A stretch of DNA of 64,000 bases from Ruminococcus hominis (GTDB lineage Bacteria; Bacillota; Clostridia; Lachnospirales; Lachnospiraceae). How positions within the stretch are numbered: the first letter of the stretch is position 1; each line of letters starts with the position of its first letter. The notes under the pieces were generated by a model. That model had not been told where the DNA came from. It saw only the letters and a program-made list of their open reading frames with translations, and did not search any database. The DNA lies in NCBI RefSeq assembly GCF_014287355.1, contig NZ_JACOPE010000001.1, positions 3,038,001-3,102,000 of the forward strand. Direction: 5' to 3'. Below, in pieces: positions 1,372-11,969 of this stretch. A program made the position numbers and the translations under genes.

Positions 1372-1626
1372 CTATACATGTAAATGTAAATATTTTTCTC
1401 GGGTAGCAAGTCCACCACGAATGTGGCGCTCTGATTTGTTTGTATCGAGGACCTTACGTGCCTCATGTGCAAGTGATGGGTTGATTTGGAACAGACGCTC
1501 GGTAACATCCTTATGTACAGTCGATTTTGACACTCCGAATTTTTTTGCTGTCTGCCGGATTGTTGCCTTCTCCTGTATAATGTAATTTGCAATCTCGATT
1601 GCCCGCTCTTCAATATAATCTCTCAT
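1372..1626 (-). CDS. spoIIID: Sporulation transcription factor SpoIIID (intact copy)
   Basis: Small DNA-binding regulator of mother-cell gene expression during sporulation; in Bacillus it modulates sigma-E genes and sigK. The 84 residues match the family length. The helix-turn-helix spans about residues 22-43 (ATIRQTAKKFGVSKSTVHKD) and is followed by the basic C-terminal tail. The first 38 codons and the upstream leader lie in a 189-bp repeat that recurs at 7583-7771. The gene has therefore been split and rebuilt: its 5' end belongs to the repeat on the accessory-block side and its 3' end is chromosomal. The start codon follows a GGGG ribosome site buried in a hairpin. Confidence 0.95.
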   Translation of the reverse strand: MRDYIEERAIEIANYIIQEKATIRQTAKKFGVSKSTVHKDVTERLFQINPSLAHEARKVLDTNKSERHIRGGLATREKYLHLHV

Positions 1627-1700
1627 AGAAAAGCCCCTGCATAGTTTGTTTTTTACAATCTATGCAAGGGTCTGTTATTGTATGTCTGATTCGAATTTCT
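1512..1700. repeat. 189-bp direct repeat, copy 1 (spoIIID 5' end plus leader)
   Basis: Aligns without gaps to 7583-7771 at a constant offset of 6,071 bp; I count 4 mismatches in 189 positions. It holds spoIIID codons 1-38, the leader hairpin, a CATACAAT box and the last codons of the truncated recombinase. The two copies bracket the accessory block, as attachment sites or recombination junctions would. Confidence 0.9.
1634..1684 (-). promoter_or_regulatory. spoIIID leader: sigma-E-like -10 box and a hairpin that hides the ribosome site
   Basis: On the minus strand CATACAAT (1677-1684) matches the sigma-E -10 consensus; no convincing -35 is seen. Just downstream CCCTTGCATAG (1660-1670) can pair with CTATGCAGGGG (1634-1644), and the GGGG in the second arm is the only Shine-Dalgarno candidate before the ATG at 1626. 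The hairpin could also act as a weak terminator for the recombinase gene. It is preserved in the second repeat copy. Confidence 0.5.
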
Positions 1701-2052
1701 TACTTGCCATTGATGATTTTTCCAGTATATATTTCATAAAAAACTGAGGTTCAATTTTCAATGATTTCAGCTTATGGACATTCTGTAAAAGATCCACCGT
1801 GTTTCTGGCAAAACGAGAGATGTCTTTTACAACGACCATATCAAACAATCCATGCTCTGCATCAGCCATCATGCGAAGAAATTCTTTACGATTTTTTATT
1901 TTTGTTCCGGAAATACCTTCATCTGCATATAATCTAACTAAAGTGTCCCCTGTGCGCTTGGTGTATCCTGAGAAAAATTCTTTTTGAGCTTCCAGACTGT
2001 TGAACTGATCAGCTTTGTCGGTGGAGACACGGCAATAGGCTGCTATGTTCAT
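1675..2052 (-). pseudogene. Truncated large serine recombinase (N-terminal catalytic domain only)
   Basis: The first roughly 105 residues are a resolvase/invertase catalytic domain: YCRVSTD with the nucleophile S10, LVRLYADEGISGT, RKEFLRMM and VVVKDISRFARN. Large serine recombinases run to 450-550 residues, with recombinase and zinc-ribbon domains; here the protein stops at 125. The last residues (KFESDIQ) are encoded by the 189-bp repeat, so the reading frame has been fused to foreign DNA. An integrase of this type could have put the block here, but this copy lacks the DNA-binding part and is probably inactive. Confidence 0.8.
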
Positions 2053-2128: not shown

Positions 2129-2163
2129 CAAAAGAGGATTATTGAACTTCACTTCAACAATCC
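2129..2163 (-). terminator. Intrinsic terminator after the KAP gene
   Basis: GGATTATTGAA (2136-2146) pairs with TTCAACAATCC (2153-2163); read on the minus strand the hairpin is followed by CTCTTTT. It closes the RloA-RloB-KAP operon. Confidence 0.6.
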
Positions 2164-2216
2164 CCTATAAACTAATTGCAATCGCCTCATCAGTAACAAA
2201 CAAAATTTACGCTTAA

Positions 2217-4109
2217 TCAATGCAATGTTTTCTTTAACCGATATGTGTTATACATATCATGTATATATGTCGTTCCAATAATTTCTTGATTTTCATGACC
2301 TTGTATCAATTTACTGAAAAGGTATTCAAAAAAATTCTGGTAAATTCTCCCTTCAAATATTTGACTCATAATATCTACAATATACTGTACCTCTTCATTT
2401 CTAGTTAAATCATATTGTTTTAAGGCACAATCAACATACGTTTTATAATCCCACTCTCCTTCTTTATCATATTTATCCATACTTTGTTGGAAGTAGAAAA
2501 CATGAAGCATATTATAGTTTGTTTCGTCTACCAGTTCTTGAAAACTTATTGATATTTTTTCTTCAGTCTCATAATATTGATATTTTTTCCACTCTTCAAC
2601 AATACTATCACTTTCATCAGGTCTAGATAGATTAAAAATCCAATATCCAGAAACTTTAATATCTATCCACTTTACATCGTCAATCCTTTGTTGTGTTCGT
2701 ATTAAGGTTGGAGAACCACCGTAAAATAATTTCATGAGAAATTCTATATTCGCACCAGACGGAAAAATACTCAACTTATCAAACGCTTTATCATAAAAAG
2801 CTATATGTGCAATCATAACGCTATTAAACAACGAGTTCATAAACTCTTTCGTAAGATCTTTTTTATCAAATAAATCCGCAGTTATAATAAAAGCCTCCAG
2901 TAAATTGCCATAAAGACGCAAATTGCTAAATTGTCCTTCAAACAATATATTGTCTATATTATATTTAATATTTTCATTCAAGAAACCTTTTATTATTTTC
3001 TGTTTTTCATCATCTAATAATACTTTATTCTTAATACACTTATCTATTACAGATATTCTGACTTCCGGTAAAACAATTTTTCTATACTCAATACAATTCA
3101 ATTTACTTCTCAAGATATCATAAATAAATTTCTCTCCCAAGACTTCCGAATTGCATATAATAACTACTTTCATTTCATATTTCTCTATAATATCATTAAT
3201 GAGACCTATCGCGATATTATATTTGTCAATATCTGTTCTCTCCAAATTGTAGCTAAAGAAGTTTTCAATTTTTTGAAAGGACTCTCCCACATGCTCAAAT
3301 TCTTTTACAATTTCTTTAAATTCCGATATAGAATTTTTTCCACGTGTAGCATTCGAAAGCAAAAAAGATGTTTTTTTATATAAATGCGGAGATTTTTCTT
3401 TCACTATTGCCCTAGATGTAATTCTTTCAAAATCATCAAAAATAAAAATCGAACCACTTTTTATCGAATCATATCCATATGCTTTCTTAAAAAATTTAAA
3501 AATTGCCCCTCCGATAATAGGTACAAATTGCATTGCTTTTATCAACAGCGCATAAAAAGACTTATCATTTTGTTCGATAGTATTACTGATTTCTTTTACT
3601 AATTCCTTCCGCGAATCAAGTCCAAAGCAAGAAATTCTATATACTTTGGTTTTTGAATAACGAAAATACTTATCAAAAAACTTATCTACCTCGTATGTTT
3701 TTCCCGTCCCCCATTCACCCGTAACTAAAAAACAACGTGGGATACTTGAATCCTGCAAATACCTAAGAAGACTTGTTTCAAAACGATTAGTACCTTTCTG
3801 TTTTTTCAACCATCGCTCCCATACTAATTCTAGTAACCAATTTAGAAATTGAATCACTAAAAATGTAGCAATAATTATTCTAAATAGTTTTTCTACACAC
3901 AAATATATATTTTTAATAGTTACCAAATCAATGTCTACATACCATGTAATAAAATATATACAAATATTTTTGCACACTTTACGTAAAATATCTATCCGAT
4001 AAATTAAAATACCAAAAATACTAATAATTGCCAAAAAATCTATATTCATCTTTAATTTTAAAAATATTTTCTCTATCGTCTTTTGCATTTTCTTCTCTCT
4101 TGTCCCCAT
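2217..4109 (-). CDS. Membrane-anchored KAP-family P-loop NTPase
   Basis: The 630-residue protein has two or three hydrophobic N-terminal segments (about 22-40, 45-60 and 76-95), then a P-loop GEWGTGKT at 131-138 and a Walker B IFIFDDFER at 221-229. The DDFER/DDLER box and the membrane segments near the nucleotide fold are hallmarks of KAP NTPases, the family of the phage-exclusion protein PifA of plasmid F. The C-terminal 300 residues are unrecognised. It is the last gene of an operon, 23 bp after the RloB-type gene, and clearly more AT-rich than the flanking chromosome, which suggests transfer. Start is uncertain: ATG at 4109 has no clear ribosome site; an in-frame ATG at 4088 follows AGAGAG. 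A defence role is inferred. Confidence 0.75.
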   Translation of the reverse strand: MGTREKKMQKTIEKIFLKLKMNIDFLAIISIFGILIYRIDILRKVCKNICIYFITWYVDIDLVTIKNIYLCVEKLFRIIIATFLVIQFLNWLLELVWERWLKKQKGTNRFETSLLRYLQDSSIPRCFLVTGEWGTGKTYEVDKFFDKYFRYSKTKVYRISCFGLDSRKELVKEISNTIEQNDKSFYALLIKAMQFVPIIGGAIFKFFKKAYGYDSIKSGSIFIFDDFERITSRAIVKEKSPHLYKKTSFLLSNATRGKNSISEFKEIVKEFEHVGESFQKIENFFSYNLERTDIDKYNIAIGLINDIIEKYEMKVVIICNSEVLGEKFIYDILRSKLNCIEYRKIVLPEVRISVIDKCIKNKVLLDDEKQKIIKGFLNENIKYNIDNILFEGQFSNLRLYGNLLEAFIITADLFDKKDLTKEFMNSLFNSVMIAHIAFYDKAFDKLSIFPSGANIEFLMKLFYGGSPTLIRTQQRIDDVKWIDIKVSGYWIFNLSRPDESDSIVEEWKKYQYYETEEKISISFQELVDETNYNMLHVFYFQQSMDKYDKEGEWDYKTYVDCALKQYDLTRNEEVQYIVDIMSQIFEGRIYQNFFEYLFSKLIQGHENQEIIGTTYIHDMYNTYRLKKTLH

Positions 4110-4132
4110 AAATCATTTGAAAATATTCACTC

Positions 4133-4837
4133 TTACAAAAATGTCTTTTGCATTTTTTCCGGCAAATACTTCGCCAGTTCCTCCACCAGCTCATAAACCT
4201 TCGTTCCCGGTGCTATCTCTGCCGGTGTCTTTCCCTCTCCATTTTGTATAATTCGCTTCGCATATCGAATTGCCAGTTTGGGACTTCCGCCATTCATCAA
4301 TGTTTCAAATATGTCATCCATATTCTTCTCATACTTCCCAATTCCCAGCTCTTGAAATTTCTCATTCAAAAACTTCTTATACTCGGATCTATGATTATTT
4401 GATGTGTAATATGCAAAATGTAACATGAACCAGAATTCGATACACTCGTTACTCCACGCCGCATGATACTGAATATCCGGATTCTTTTGATTTAATACTT
4501 CTGCCCGCTGGACTACTCCATTGACATCACTGGATGGAAAGCTGTCTTTATCATAGACACACCATATCTGCCCTTTTGTGATCTTATTCTCACGCACATA
4601 CTCTTCAGCCTTTCCGATTACCCGCATCGTCTCAGCCTGGCAGCCTTCAATTTCAATCAACACCATATCCCGATAAATGGGATTATCTTCAATATACCGT
4701 TTGAATCCTTGAAAATATTTAGGTTCCGTTGCTTGTCCTTCGCAGAAAATATAGTAGCGGAATTCTTTCTTTTCCAGATATTCCTGCCGACGTTTCTTCT
4801 TCCAGTTATCTTTCTCTTTTCTGCCTCTTTTAGCCAT
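4133..4837 (-). CDS. rloB: RloB-like protein (AbiLii type), putative nuclease-like partner
   Basis: 234 residues with a very basic N-terminus, then the RloB signature: CEGQATEPKYF from residue 32 (usual form CEGxxTEPxYF), YDKDSF at 95-100 and SNECIEFWFMLH at 129-140. The acidic E and DxD pattern is Toprim-like, so metal-dependent nucleic-acid cleavage is the usual guess. RloB proteins occur next to RloA ATPases in restriction and abortive-infection loci; the pair resembles AbiL of Lactococcus. It overlaps the end of the ATPase gene by 8 bp, implying translational coupling. Confidence 0.85.
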   Translation of the reverse strand: MAKRGRKEKDNWKKKRRQEYLEKKEFRYYIFCEGQATEPKYFQGFKRYIEDNPIYRDMVLIEIEGCQAETMRVIGKAEEYVRENKITKGQIWCVYDKDSFPSSDVNGVVQRAEVLNQKNPDIQYHAAWSNECIEFWFMLHFAYYTSNNHRSEYKKFLNEKFQELGIGKYEKNMDDIFETLMNGGSPKLAIRYAKRIIQNGEGKTPAEIAPGTKVYELVEELAKYLPEKMQKTFL

Positions 4838-6056
4838 TCACCGTCCCCCAATCTATAATCTTTCTGAGGTATGGATCTGCACCATATTTTCCTTCCAGAT
4901 ACTGTTTATCGAACTTCGCATCCTTGCGTACAGACTCACCTTTCTTATTTTTAAATTCTACAAGAGAATATAATTTTGAGTTCTGACGGTTTCCTTTAGC
5001 TACAAACCATATTTCATCTCTTCTGAATACTTCACTGTTCATAGTAGACAGATCATGTGATGTAAAAATCAACTGAGCACCTTTTTTATTCTTTTCCATA
5101 TTGCTAAACGTCATAATAAGATATTTAAGCAATACCGGATGGATTTTCGCATCCAGTTCATCAATTACAAGAGTTGTTCCCCTCAATAAACTTTTTGCAA
5201 TAAATGGGAGCAGGCCAAATAATTTCTTTGTTCCACTGGATTCATCAAATAAATTCAATTCTGCTTCATATTCATCTACTACGTGTTTTGTAAACACTTC
5301 GATCCGGTCATTCTCCTTTTCTTCTACACGAAAATCTACAATATCCAAATCCATTTCCTGAATCATCTGAAGCATCAGTTTTTTTACATCCTCTGACTTG
5401 GAAATAGCCATTCGTAATTCCTGCATGGGATTTCCATAATTCAGGAAATCAATTTCTTCATCAAACCAGTCAAGCACATCCTGTACCACTTCGTTTTTGC
5501 TGTAAGTAATTCCAAGATACGATAACAATGGCAATGTATCAGATAATTCATCACTGGTTTTCAATCTTGCAAATGCACCTTTCAAAGTAATTTCATCTTC
5601 ATCTCGTTCAAAAAGTGCTGATTTTCGTCCTGTCTCCAATTTTATGCGGTCCAGTCTTTCATATTCGATTACTTCTTTTTTTACGGTTAATTCATAGCGA
5701 TACTCTGCCATTGCCGTTCTAAAAAACAGTTCAAATTCTGTTGGCTCATTTCTTGTTTCTTCATCAAAAGCAAACGGCTCTATCACAAGCTTTTTCATTT
5801 TTATTGCAATCTCTTCGTTATTACTTGTAGCATATAATGGTCTCAACACCTTCGTAACCAGACTGTGTAACGCTTCAAGAACATTAGATTTGCCTCCACC
5901 ATTTGGTCCGTATACAGCAGATACCGGTAAATATAATTCCTCATCTTTATCTTTTATAATTCTGTCTTCATGCTCAGAAATGGCGGCAGCCTGCATATCA
6001 AATGTTACCTCATCCCGTATACTCTTAAAATTTTTCACTGTAAATTGGCATAACAT
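4830..6056 (-). CDS. rloA: RloA/AbiLi-like AAA ATPase
   Basis: A 408-residue ABC/SMC-type ATPase of the AAA_15/AAA_21 group. Motifs: N-terminal FTVKNFKSIRDEVTFDM, Walker A GPNGGGKSN near residues 50-58, a signature-like ESSGTKKL, Walker B TTLVIDELD followed by KIHP, and the H-loop FTSHD. I place the start at the ATG at 6056 because GGAGG lies 8 bp upstream; the ATG at 6071 is itself part of that ribosome site. First gene of the operon, with its own promoter. By analogy with AbiL and PARIS-type pairs it should sense phage and control the RloB-type effector; this is inference. Confidence 0.85.
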   Translation of the reverse strand: MLCQFTVKNFKSIRDEVTFDMQAAAISEHEDRIIKDKDEELYLPVSAVYGPNGGGKSNVLEALHSLVTKVLRPLYATSNNEEIAIKMKKLVIEPFAFDEETRNEPTEFELFFRTAMAEYRYELTVKKEVIEYERLDRIKLETGRKSALFERDEDEITLKGAFARLKTSDELSDTLPLLSYLGITYSKNEVVQDVLDWFDEEIDFLNYGNPMQELRMAISKSEDVKKLMLQMIQEMDLDIVDFRVEEKENDRIEVFTKHVVDEYEAELNLFDESSGTKKLFGLLPFIAKSLLRGTTLVIDELDAKIHPVLLKYLIMTFSNMEKNKKGAQLIFTSHDLSTMNSEVFRRDEIWFVAKGNRQNSKLYSLVEFKNKKGESVRKDAKFDKQYLEGKYGADPYLRKIIDWGTVNG

Positions 6057-6098
6057 CTTATTTACCTCCATTAGTCCAAACTTCTTGCCTATATCCTT

Positions 6099-6126
6099 AT
6101 TATATTCCCTTTTTTTATTTTTGCAA
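6099..6126 (-). promoter_or_regulatory. Predicted sigma-A promoter of the rloA operon
   Basis: On the minus strand TTGCAA (6121-6126), a 16-bp spacer and a perfect TATAAT (6099-6104), about 45 bp ahead of the rloA start. Confidence 0.6.
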
Positions 6127-6132
6127 CAGTTT

Positions 6133-6151
6133 TATGAGATAGAATCTCATA
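6133..6151. promoter_or_regulatory. Palindrome next to the rloA promoter, possible operator
   Basis: TATGAGAT, 3 bp, ATCTCATA: perfect 8-bp arms, 6 bp upstream of the -35 box. The position suits an operator or activator site; the regulator is unknown. Confidence 0.4.
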
Positions 6152-6594
6152 TTTTATGTTGTAATTTATATTCCAGCAATTTTCGACAAAATTATACACC
6201 TTATACTTCCTATTAGTGCTTTTAAATCCGTTCCTCATCTATTCATTCAGAGGTTTCTGACCATTTACATAATATTTCCTTTCAAGGTTTTCAAAAAGCG
6301 CCCTCGTTTCCTAATGCTCTGTAAAAAATATTCAATTTTTACCTGCTTACAGTTTTAATGTAGCCAATATGATATTCCTAATTTCTAAATATTATTTTTG
6401 ATTATTACAATACAATATTACCCAAGTAGCTCTTGCTCTTCTCTTTTAACTCCAAATACATTCCCTACTTTTCGATAATCTATGACAGTGCTACAATTAA
6501 ATGATATACTGAATCTAGTTTATAAATTTGGAAGCAGATTATATCAAGCATTCAGATAACAGAAAATTGATTAGGAATACATTCTCCCAAATGA
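6152..6594. other. AT-rich intergenic stretch without recognised features
   Basis: No reading frame, tRNA or clear terminator is visible on either strand. It separates the defence operon from the convergent gene and may be decayed sequence. Confidence 0.5.
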
Positions 6595-6726
6595 TTTTAC
6601 AGCGAATCTCAGGCTTCAGAATGGATTTCATTTGCTCAAAAGACTGATGAACTCCGAGAAAACTTTATAAATCTTTTTGGCACAGAACAATTAAAATCAC
6701 TTTCCAGAAGAGACTTGAACCTATAA
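6595..6726 (+). pseudogene. Possible remnant of a gene (about 43 open codons)
   Basis: A frame without start codon encodes SEWISFAQKTDELRENF and on to LFGTEQLKSLSRRDLNL before a stop. The composition is protein-like. It faintly recalls the N-terminal region of McrB-type restriction ATPases of Clostridia, from memory only. Could be chance. Confidence 0.25.
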
Positions 6727-6792: not shown

Positions 6793-7431
6793 ATGTTTGA
6801 TTCAAATAAAACATGGTTTTGTAAACAACTTAGAACTGAAGATGCAAAACAAATAGGCGAACAATTAAATATTGCTATAAGCGAAGCTGATCACTCAGAA
6901 GCCACAAAACTTTTTCAAAAAGTCAAAAAATATATGAAAATACGTATTAATGAAAATTATTTTTTACCACTTAAAAATATTCATACATGCTTGGCAAAAC
7001 TCGACATCCCAGAAAATACTGCTTTTATCACTATGGGAATTAATTGCATTCTTATTGAATTATTCTATGAAATGAAAAATGGATATGATGAGTCCCGCGA
7101 AGGCGGTACAGTAGGAAACGCATATAAAGAAATTTTACCATTGTTAGATCCAACTATATCAGAAGATCTTGCAATACTATTTTATAAAGGAATTAGATGT
7201 GGTATATTACATCAAGGTCAAACCAAGAACAATACTGCATTAACATATCAACTAGATACAATCATTCAACCAAACGGTCCTTACTATTTATGCAATCCGC
7301 AAACATTATTTGAAAAACTAAAAAACTTGTATAGCTTATATTGGAAAGACATTTCTGAAAAGAATTATTCTGATGAACTGGCAATAAACTTAATTCAAAA
7401 ATATAATCACATACTTACTCATATATCATAA
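6793..7431 (+). CDS. Hypothetical protein with an R-X4-H motif, possibly HEPN-like
   Basis: I do not recognise this 212-residue protein. It looks mostly helical, with no signal peptide or membrane segment. Residues 131-143 (YKGIRCGILHQGQ) contain R135-x4-H140, the spacing of the catalytic R-X4-6-H motif of HEPN ribonucleases, and the helical setting agrees. It is transcribed from the opposite strand, towards the repeat at 7583, and is AT-rich like its neighbours. The start follows AAAGGATGG. A toxin or effector role is suggested only by motif and neighbourhood. Confidence 0.6.
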   Translation: MFDSNKTWFCKQLRTEDAKQIGEQLNIAISEADHSEATKLFQKVKKYMKIRINENYFLPLKNIHTCLAKLDIPENTAFITMGINCILIELFYEMKNGYDESREGGTVGNAYKEILPLLDPTISEDLAILFYKGIRCGILHQGQTKNNTALTYQLDTIIQPNGPYYLCNPQTLFEKLKNLYSLYWKDISEKNYSDELAINLIQKYNHILTHIS

Positions 7432-7505: not shown

Positions 7506-7565
7506 CATCATTCTATTGCTTTCTTTGTATTATTTATATTTATTTTATTCTCCATATATATCGTT

Positions 7566-7697
7566 CTATTTTGTTACTACCATATGCACAGTTGATTTTG
7601 ACACTCCGAATTTTTTTGCTGTCTGCCGGATTGTTGCCTTCTCTTGTATAATGTAATTTGCAATCTCGATTGCCCGCTCTTCAATATAATCTCTCAT
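7566..7697 (-). pseudogene. Truncated 5' copy of spoIIID (43 codons)
   Basis: Starts with the same 38 residues as intact SpoIIID, including most of the helix-turn-helix up to KSTVH, then runs into MVVTK and a TAG stop at 7566. The leader with CATACAAT box and hairpin is also duplicated, so it could still be transcribed in sporulation. The recognition helix is cut short and the basic C-terminal tail is absent. It is most simply the chromosomal stump left when the accessory block entered spoIIID. Confidence 0.8.
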
Positions 7698-7771
7698 AGA
7701 AAAGCCCCTGCATAGTTTGTTTTTTACAATCTATGCAAGGGTCTGTTATTGTATGTCTGATTCAAATTTCT
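7583..7771. repeat. 189-bp direct repeat, copy 2
   Basis: Gapless match to 1512-1700 with 4 mismatches, marking the right end of the 6,071-bp accessory block. To its right the sequence is ordinary chromosome; to its left similarity to spoIIID fades within about 15 bp. Confidence 0.9.
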
Positions 7772-11723: not shown

Positions 11724-11969
11724 TTTAAATTCACCTCATGATTTATTTATATGACCCATACAAGCCAAAACATATGCTTACATTGTACCATACTTTATTT
11801 TAGAATAAAAGTTGGAACACTGTTTAAACACACCTTTTTCCTTTATCTTTTACCCGATTTCTGCACTTGTTTTACTTGCGCTTCACTCTAAACAATGATA
11901 CAATACTAAATGCATAATTGCGGATTTCTTGATATCCGCTCTACATTTAATTTAATAGGAGGGTTTGTC

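Follow-up and report, generated by a model that had tools for sequence, protein, structure and literature searches.

The window analyzed here is a stretch of 64,000 nucleotides from Ruminococcus hominis, in which three neighboring genes encode an RloA-like ATPase, an RloB-like protein and a KAP NTPase. It was concluded that the RloA-RloB-KAP genes are likely an operon carried as cargo by a spoIIID-intervening element that is now a fossil. As passengers of such an element, the three defense genes would lie close together because they were carried together, which is probably a better account of their spacing than a single machine of three parts.

Remains of the element in the window

A tblastn search with the window SpoIIID located a spoIIID 5' fragment at 7697-7569, upstream of the RloA gene (amino acids 1-43, 93%). 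The fragment stopped with codon 38 (CAT), in the conserved left arm of the element. A consensus derived from 10 related elements has 38 defined positions, including the core; the left end of the window copy agreed with it at 33 of these, and the intact window spoIIID, compared in the same place, at 17. This intact gene (1626-1372) sat downstream of both the KAP gene and a broken recombinase. The spoIIID upstream region and codons 1-38 occurred twice, forming a 188-bp direct repeat with 184 of the 188 positions equal between the two copies (Table 1). Upstream sequence made up 74 bp of the repeat and contained CATACAAT, which we took to resemble a sigma-E -10 box. The recombinase remnant was 75-85% identical to the closest of the intact recombinases in related elements and 46-69% identical to more distant ones. 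The original prediction had noted neither the spoIIID fragment nor the recombinase remnant, and thus not the element.

It might be argued that an ordinary defense island came to lie near spoIIID by chance, next to a random resolvase fragment, since defense genes cluster generally and the window recombinase is a fragment only. However, such an island would account neither for the spoIIID 5' fragment with its conserved attachment arm and the 188-bp repeat nor for the likeness of the recombinase fragment to recombinases that abut spoIIID elsewhere. The attachment-site evidence contradicted a chance island, which was judged highly improbable.

Two further signals were recorded beside these genes. 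A strong hairpin at 1635-1675, just 5' of the spoIIID start (minimum free energy -22 kcal/mol), lay within the direct repeat, so that both copies have it; an effect on spoIIID translation is possible. A sigma-70-like site at 2098-2125 preceded the recombinase remnant (11/12, extended TG), which would fit steady recombinase expression with the timing provided by another factor.

Related elements, sealed copies and cargo

Further, 397 genomes from the family to which the closest KAP relative belongs were searched. A SpoIIID match was obtained in 241 of them, and spoIIID was present in pieces only in 29 of the 241, with both halves found in 21; the 29 were counted over 47 genomes inspected, and 11 more borderline genomes had the gene whole or nearly so. 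At the G397 locus a serine recombinase ran into the spoIIID 3' part. Fourteen loci were bounded, having both spoIIID halves on one contig in the same direction and a recombinase between them. The full-length recombinases of these elements were 44-98% identical to that of L001, a locus from a Blautia metagenome-assembled genome. Codon 38 was CAT on both sides in 13 of the 14 elements and CAC in L091, the arms were inverted repeats above shuffles in 12, and the element sizes ranged from ~3.6 kb (G059) to 75 kb (G110). When the halves were joined in silico, an open SpoIIID frame of 84-93 amino acids was obtained in 14 of 14 cases, and the differences among the joined genes were mostly third-position in both halves (1993 versus 798 and 380; 2269 versus 1022 and 499). 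No description of spoIIID-intervening elements was found in the portions of the literature searched.

A second element kind was observed at L111, L113 and L116 (genomes G136, G080 and G175), where three serine recombinases in a row ended at the spoIIID 3' part. Its junction was different, the spoIIID match beginning from codon 40 in L113 and L116.

In six family genomes (G026, G115, G225, G304, G312 and G377) an intact spoIIID was preceded, on its own contig and strand, by a 5' fragment of the gene. The left ends of five of them fitted 25-30 of the 38 consensus positions; that of G026 fitted 11 of 38, which was no match, and a 25-residue recombinase relic was left in this genome. In G225 an AbiL-type pair adjoined the intact spoIIID. 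The window copy also looks sealed, with its recombinase broken and spoIIID whole again. It was proposed that this copy once interrupted spoIIID and became sealed when the recombinase was lost and an intact spoIIID was then regained from related DNA, presumably in that order. At two other loci, L106 (G011) and L067 (G356), a broken rloB lay directly upstream of an intact spoIIID. These are possible relics of the same element kind; no spoIIID 5' fragment was present within the stretches fetched.

For the active-type relatives, we proposed that excision would restore spoIIID, as excision of skin and gin does for sigK and gerE. Open and third-position-biased halves are what selection for the rebuilt gene would predict, and a recent insertion would look similar. 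The split genes could also be read as simply inactivated by an integrating element, in bacteria that have ceased to sporulate and have no developmental excision. Many gut Lachnospiraceae are not known as ready sporulators, which would suit plain inactivation. However, SpoIIID was restored in all 14 joined cases, and an intact spoIIID stood beside a 5' relic in six loci and in the window, as expected if loss of the gene is costly. Plain inactivation was considered rather unlikely; it concerns the relatives and is compatible with the window operon being element cargo.

A wider model was put forward tentatively, in which spoIIID of Lachnospiraceae-type bacteria serves as a standing address for a family of developmentally excised carriers, many of them with defense cargo. 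The cargo would be kept in the vegetative and spore line and excised by the mother cell to make SpoIIID. It would be swapped behind a recombinase that stays constant, and carriers with a decayed recombinase would be rescued by regaining an intact spoIIID, thus fixing the defense genes, as proposed for the window.

Known defense systems were recognized in four or more of the 14 bounded elements. L058 held RloAB and an AriAB fusion (PARIS; 2.7e-153) besides a type II restriction pair, L078 held McrBC, L080 AbiH with an FRG protein, and G110 three RloAB pairs with HerA and SIR2, its SIR2 gene broken into two frames. The contig-split locus L101 carried LmuB-like and restriction genes. No PADLOC match was obtained for L081, L082 and L083, of which two proteins each were scanned. 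The recombinase and spoIIID end were common to L001 and L077 (93% over 1807 nt), and the part of the L001 cargo in view, 2.3 kb with the RloB end and KAP, had no match in L077. This pair of loci suggests that cargo changes behind a constant recombinase, and swapping of this kind seems to have taken place.

RloB pieces with 67-90% identity to the window RloB occurred at 16 loci. Six of these loci had a spoIIID piece on the contig, all within 10 kb; the spoIIID place was not listed for G251 and G343, and G008 was without a spoIIID match. Calculated post hoc, the chance of at least five RloB loci lying within 10 kb was ~5.5e-8 if placement is random.

Two observations concerned single cargo regions. 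In L058, a duplicated rloB 3' end followed the AriAB gene (11773-11925; 137 bp, 78% to the window rloB), perhaps a trace of cargo addition behind rloB. Directly before the recombinase, L058 (12105-13802) and L082 (11618-13342) encoded a common protein of ~570 residues, 53% identical between the two, which gave no PADLOC match and, for the L058 copy on which Pfam was run, no Pfam match.

The operon and the relation of its genes

The RloA-like, RloB-like and KAP genes were co-directional on the minus strand across 2217-6071. The original prediction had described three genes with an 8-bp overlap of the RloA and RloB frames, and both statements agreed with the open reading frame (ORF) coordinates and the Pfam and PADLOC matches. 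Its 23-bp spacing between the RloB stop and KAP holds for the first KAP ATG; a start at 4088, preceded by GAGAGAAG at the position of a ribosome-binding site, is better supported, and P0001, the 100% cluster of the window KAP, has 623 amino acids, in line with this start. With the start at 4088 the gap becomes 44 bp, probably its true length. The RloA start was likewise better supported at 6056, where GGAGGT occupies the ribosome-binding-site position. The one promoter and one terminator that had been claimed corresponded to patterns at the claimed places, but such patterns were not clearly more frequent than in shuffled sequence (34 versus 26.1 ± 4.7 for promoters and 3 versus 2.0 ± 1.3 for terminators). 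A pattern scan of the RloB-KAP gap gave no promoter-like site.

Table 1. Positions of the element remains and operon features in the window
Feature	Position	Strand	Basis
Left junction: spoIIID upstream region and codons 1-38, orphan 5' fragment (repeat copy 1)	7584..7771	-	tblastn, repeat comparison
Left arm of the attachment site, beside the CAT core	7545..7583	-	fit to related-element consensus
212-aa ORF inside the element	6793..7431	+	ORF call; no Pfam or NCBIfam match
McrB-like gene-start relic	6541..6717	+	59 aa, 71% to a 705-aa AAA_5 protein beside McrC in L078
Putative operon promoter, sigma-70-like	6099..6126	-	pattern match alone
RloA/AbiLi-like ABC-type ATPase	4830..6071	-	413 aa; PADLOC AbiLi 2.8e-85; Pfam AAA_21 3.5e-30
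RloB/AbiLii TOPRIM-type protein	4133..4837	-	234 aa; Pfam RloB 2.7e-40; PADLOC AbiLii 9.5e-31
Membrane-anchored KAP/AAA+ NTPase, PDC-S49-like	2217..4109	-	630 aa; Pfam KAP_NTPase
Terminator-like hairpin 3' of KAP	2133..2166	-	minimum free energy -17.8 kcal/mol
Broken serine recombinase	1675..2052	-	N-terminal ~117 residues, then internal piece 1697-1737; Pfam Resolvase
Repeat copy 2 of the 188-bp direct repeat: region upstream of intact spoIIID and its codons 1-38	1513..1700	-	repeat comparison
Intact spoIIID, the gene targeted by this family of elements	1372..1626	-	Pfam SpoIIID 6.9e-43

The assignment of RloA and RloB to the AbiL type was borne out, an AbiLi-type ATPase and an AbiLii/RloB protein being encoded together (PADLOC, Pfam). 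Residues E33, G34, T37, E38, D96 and D98 of RloB were invariant in 13 aligned sequences, and we took the acidic residues of its E..TE and DxD motifs to be those of TOPRIM. In PADLOC, RloA matched AriA at 1.9e-34 and AbiLi at 2.8e-85. The DUF4435-type AriB of PARIS (AriA-AriB) had no counterpart in RloB, for which neither DUF4435 nor AriB was matched in Pfam or PADLOC at E values of 1 or below. In the accessible part of one report, RloB was related to OLD_TOPRIM by HHPred, and a Clostridium RloB-type TOPRIM protein and its AAA protein partner were validated as toxin and antitoxin (PMC10440598). It was proposed that the RloA ATPase restrains the RloB TOPRIM nuclease toxin, which infection would release. 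Released RloB would then halt translation, giving abortive infection as for AbiL and PARIS.

The third protein was correctly described as a membrane-anchored KAP/AAA+ NTPase, according to Pfam, two hydrophobic segments and the AAA+ core of its model. The KAP_NTPase match was barely above the cut-off (23.9 bits against 20). At least 188 homologues, 120 of them listed, were obtained by scoring the 7995 best word-sharing candidates; in the 35 that were aligned, G131, G134, G136 and K137 of the Walker A region were invariant, as was DFER, including D226 and E228. The two hydrophobic segments of the window KAP were N-terminal, with peaks near residues 23 and 78, and most homologues had two, P0052 and P0057 showing one over the threshold. 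In the AlphaFold model (mean predicted local distance difference test score, pLDDT, 80; predicted template modeling score, pTM, 0.60) the AAA+ core at ~106-442 resembled TnsC, ORC and Cdc6. The candidate defense family PDC-S49 of PADLOC was matched by 35 of the 35 aligned homologues; the match of the window KAP was partial, with its best stretch at 26-144 of the 624 profile positions. No match to KAP was found in the phages, plasmids and viral contigs searched. Most likely, KAP is a membrane-anchored NTPase switch that works on its own. It would be a separate membrane-tethered AAA+/STAND-like defense NTPase captured behind rloB, co-transcribed and non-obligate.

The original prediction had joined the three genes into one candidate composite defense system, with KAP as a possible membrane effector or an immunity/sensor component. 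In such a system RloA would sense infection, RloB would cut nucleic acid and KAP would be the effector, immunity or sensor part, all three being needed. The tight co-directional spacing and the RloB-KAP gap with no promoter-like site are in favor of such a system. However, the distribution of the genes spoke against it. RloB matches were present in 72 of the 397 family genomes, and a full-length KAP was present in one (G001), 12 further genomes giving partial, weak KAP matches. Nine family genomes encoded RloA together with an intact RloB of 71-78% identity to that of the window, and none of the nine had a full-length KAP. No KAP was found by tblastn in 20 fetched RloB neighborhoods, those nine included; 18 of the 20 reached at least 1 kb past RloB (L060 and L070 did not), and L066 and L067 had RloB pieces without RloA. 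The gene 3' of RloB varied by genome: L058 had an AriAB fusion there, L063 had SIR2-HerA, and further loci had other genes.

A pattern scan over the genomes of 84,980 species gave four KAP loci. The KAP of L001 was 87% identical, with an rloB end directly upstream at the contig edge; the other three were 32-34% identical, and their genomes had no RloB. Besides the window, L001 was the single locus seen with the RloB-KAP arrangement. Within the order, 392 genomes, overlapping in part with those of the family, gave no additional full-length KAP. We presume the PDC-S49 label, under which PADLOC files the KAP relatives, to denote a single-gene candidate, which also speaks against a composite. The co-occurrence count that the original prediction had proposed as a check gave KAP absent beside the close RloAB homologues, which is the genomic half of what that prediction had named as refuting, and the three-component system was not supported. 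A system requiring all three parts was considered unlikely.

Several points weighed against the cargo explanation. The window and L001 shared 88% of nucleotides in a stretch of 2742 nt reaching from rloB across KAP into the recombinase, and this common RloB-KAP block, which also favors a composite system, makes a working link possible; judged by the sequences, the pair was moved or kept together at least once. Contexts were seen for few KAP loci, nearly all of the 188 homologues being outside view. The GC content at third codon positions was 0.241 for KAP, 0.438 for RloB and 0.309 for RloA (0.325 ± 0.034 for 16 long window ORFs). It does not decide on the origin of KAP and was not used as a sign of a separate one, because RloA and RloB, which are sure partners, differ as well. 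Some of the 29 genomes with spoIIID in pieces may owe this to assembly breaks, and the arms of L077 and L083 were no better than shuffles. Several elements seem to carry ordinary cargo: by ORFs alone, L079 looked like an antiporter operon and L105 like transporters.

Meaning and comparison with known systems

If the operon is cargo, the unit of explanation shifts, and neighboring defense genes become joint passengers of a sporulation-gene element. The mother-cell regulator gene spoIIID would join the sporulation genes known to be split, and its splitting is perhaps not rare in one bacterial family, given pieces only in 29 of 241 genomes. The CAT core and arms would provide a marker for locating such cargo, and sealed copies may explain how cargo turns permanent.

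AbiL, the RloA-RloB system of Lactococcus lactis, is similar in having an ATPase and a TOPRIM_OLD-related RloB encoded by two genes, as cited in the accessible part of PMC10440598. The window pair differs by the KAP gene behind it; by analogy, it probably acts like AbiL. Classical KAP proteins have their membrane segments inside the P-loop domain. The window KAP passes the KAP_NTPase cut-off, but its membrane segments are N-terminal and not within that domain. It differs from PDC-S49 by its place directly behind RloAB.

Among intervening elements, the closest likeness in kind was described in the available part of a report on gin, a 28.6 kb gerE-intervening element of Bacillus cereus ATCC10987 with three recombinases and demonstrated excision (PMC5595907). 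As described there, gin is a non-phage element that splits the gene of a small sporulation regulator, uses serine recombinases and a short overlapping core (9 bp) and carries a restriction-modification system. The target is gerE in gin and spoIIID in the elements described here, which were seen with one recombinase of this clade each; their cargo includes AbiL/KAP, PARIS, SIR2-HerA and others, and their excision is predicted by analogy. The elements skin (sigK), vfbin (spoVFB), SPbeta (spsM) and yin (yabG) are prophages or prophage-like, according to the parts of the sources available (PMC4191935, PMC10747680). As far as those parts describe them, they resemble the spoIIID elements in that a recombinase-bearing element interrupts a sporulation gene; its excision can restore the gene, as is predicted for spoIIID. 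They differ in their target genes, whereas the window copy appears to be sealed beside an intact gene.

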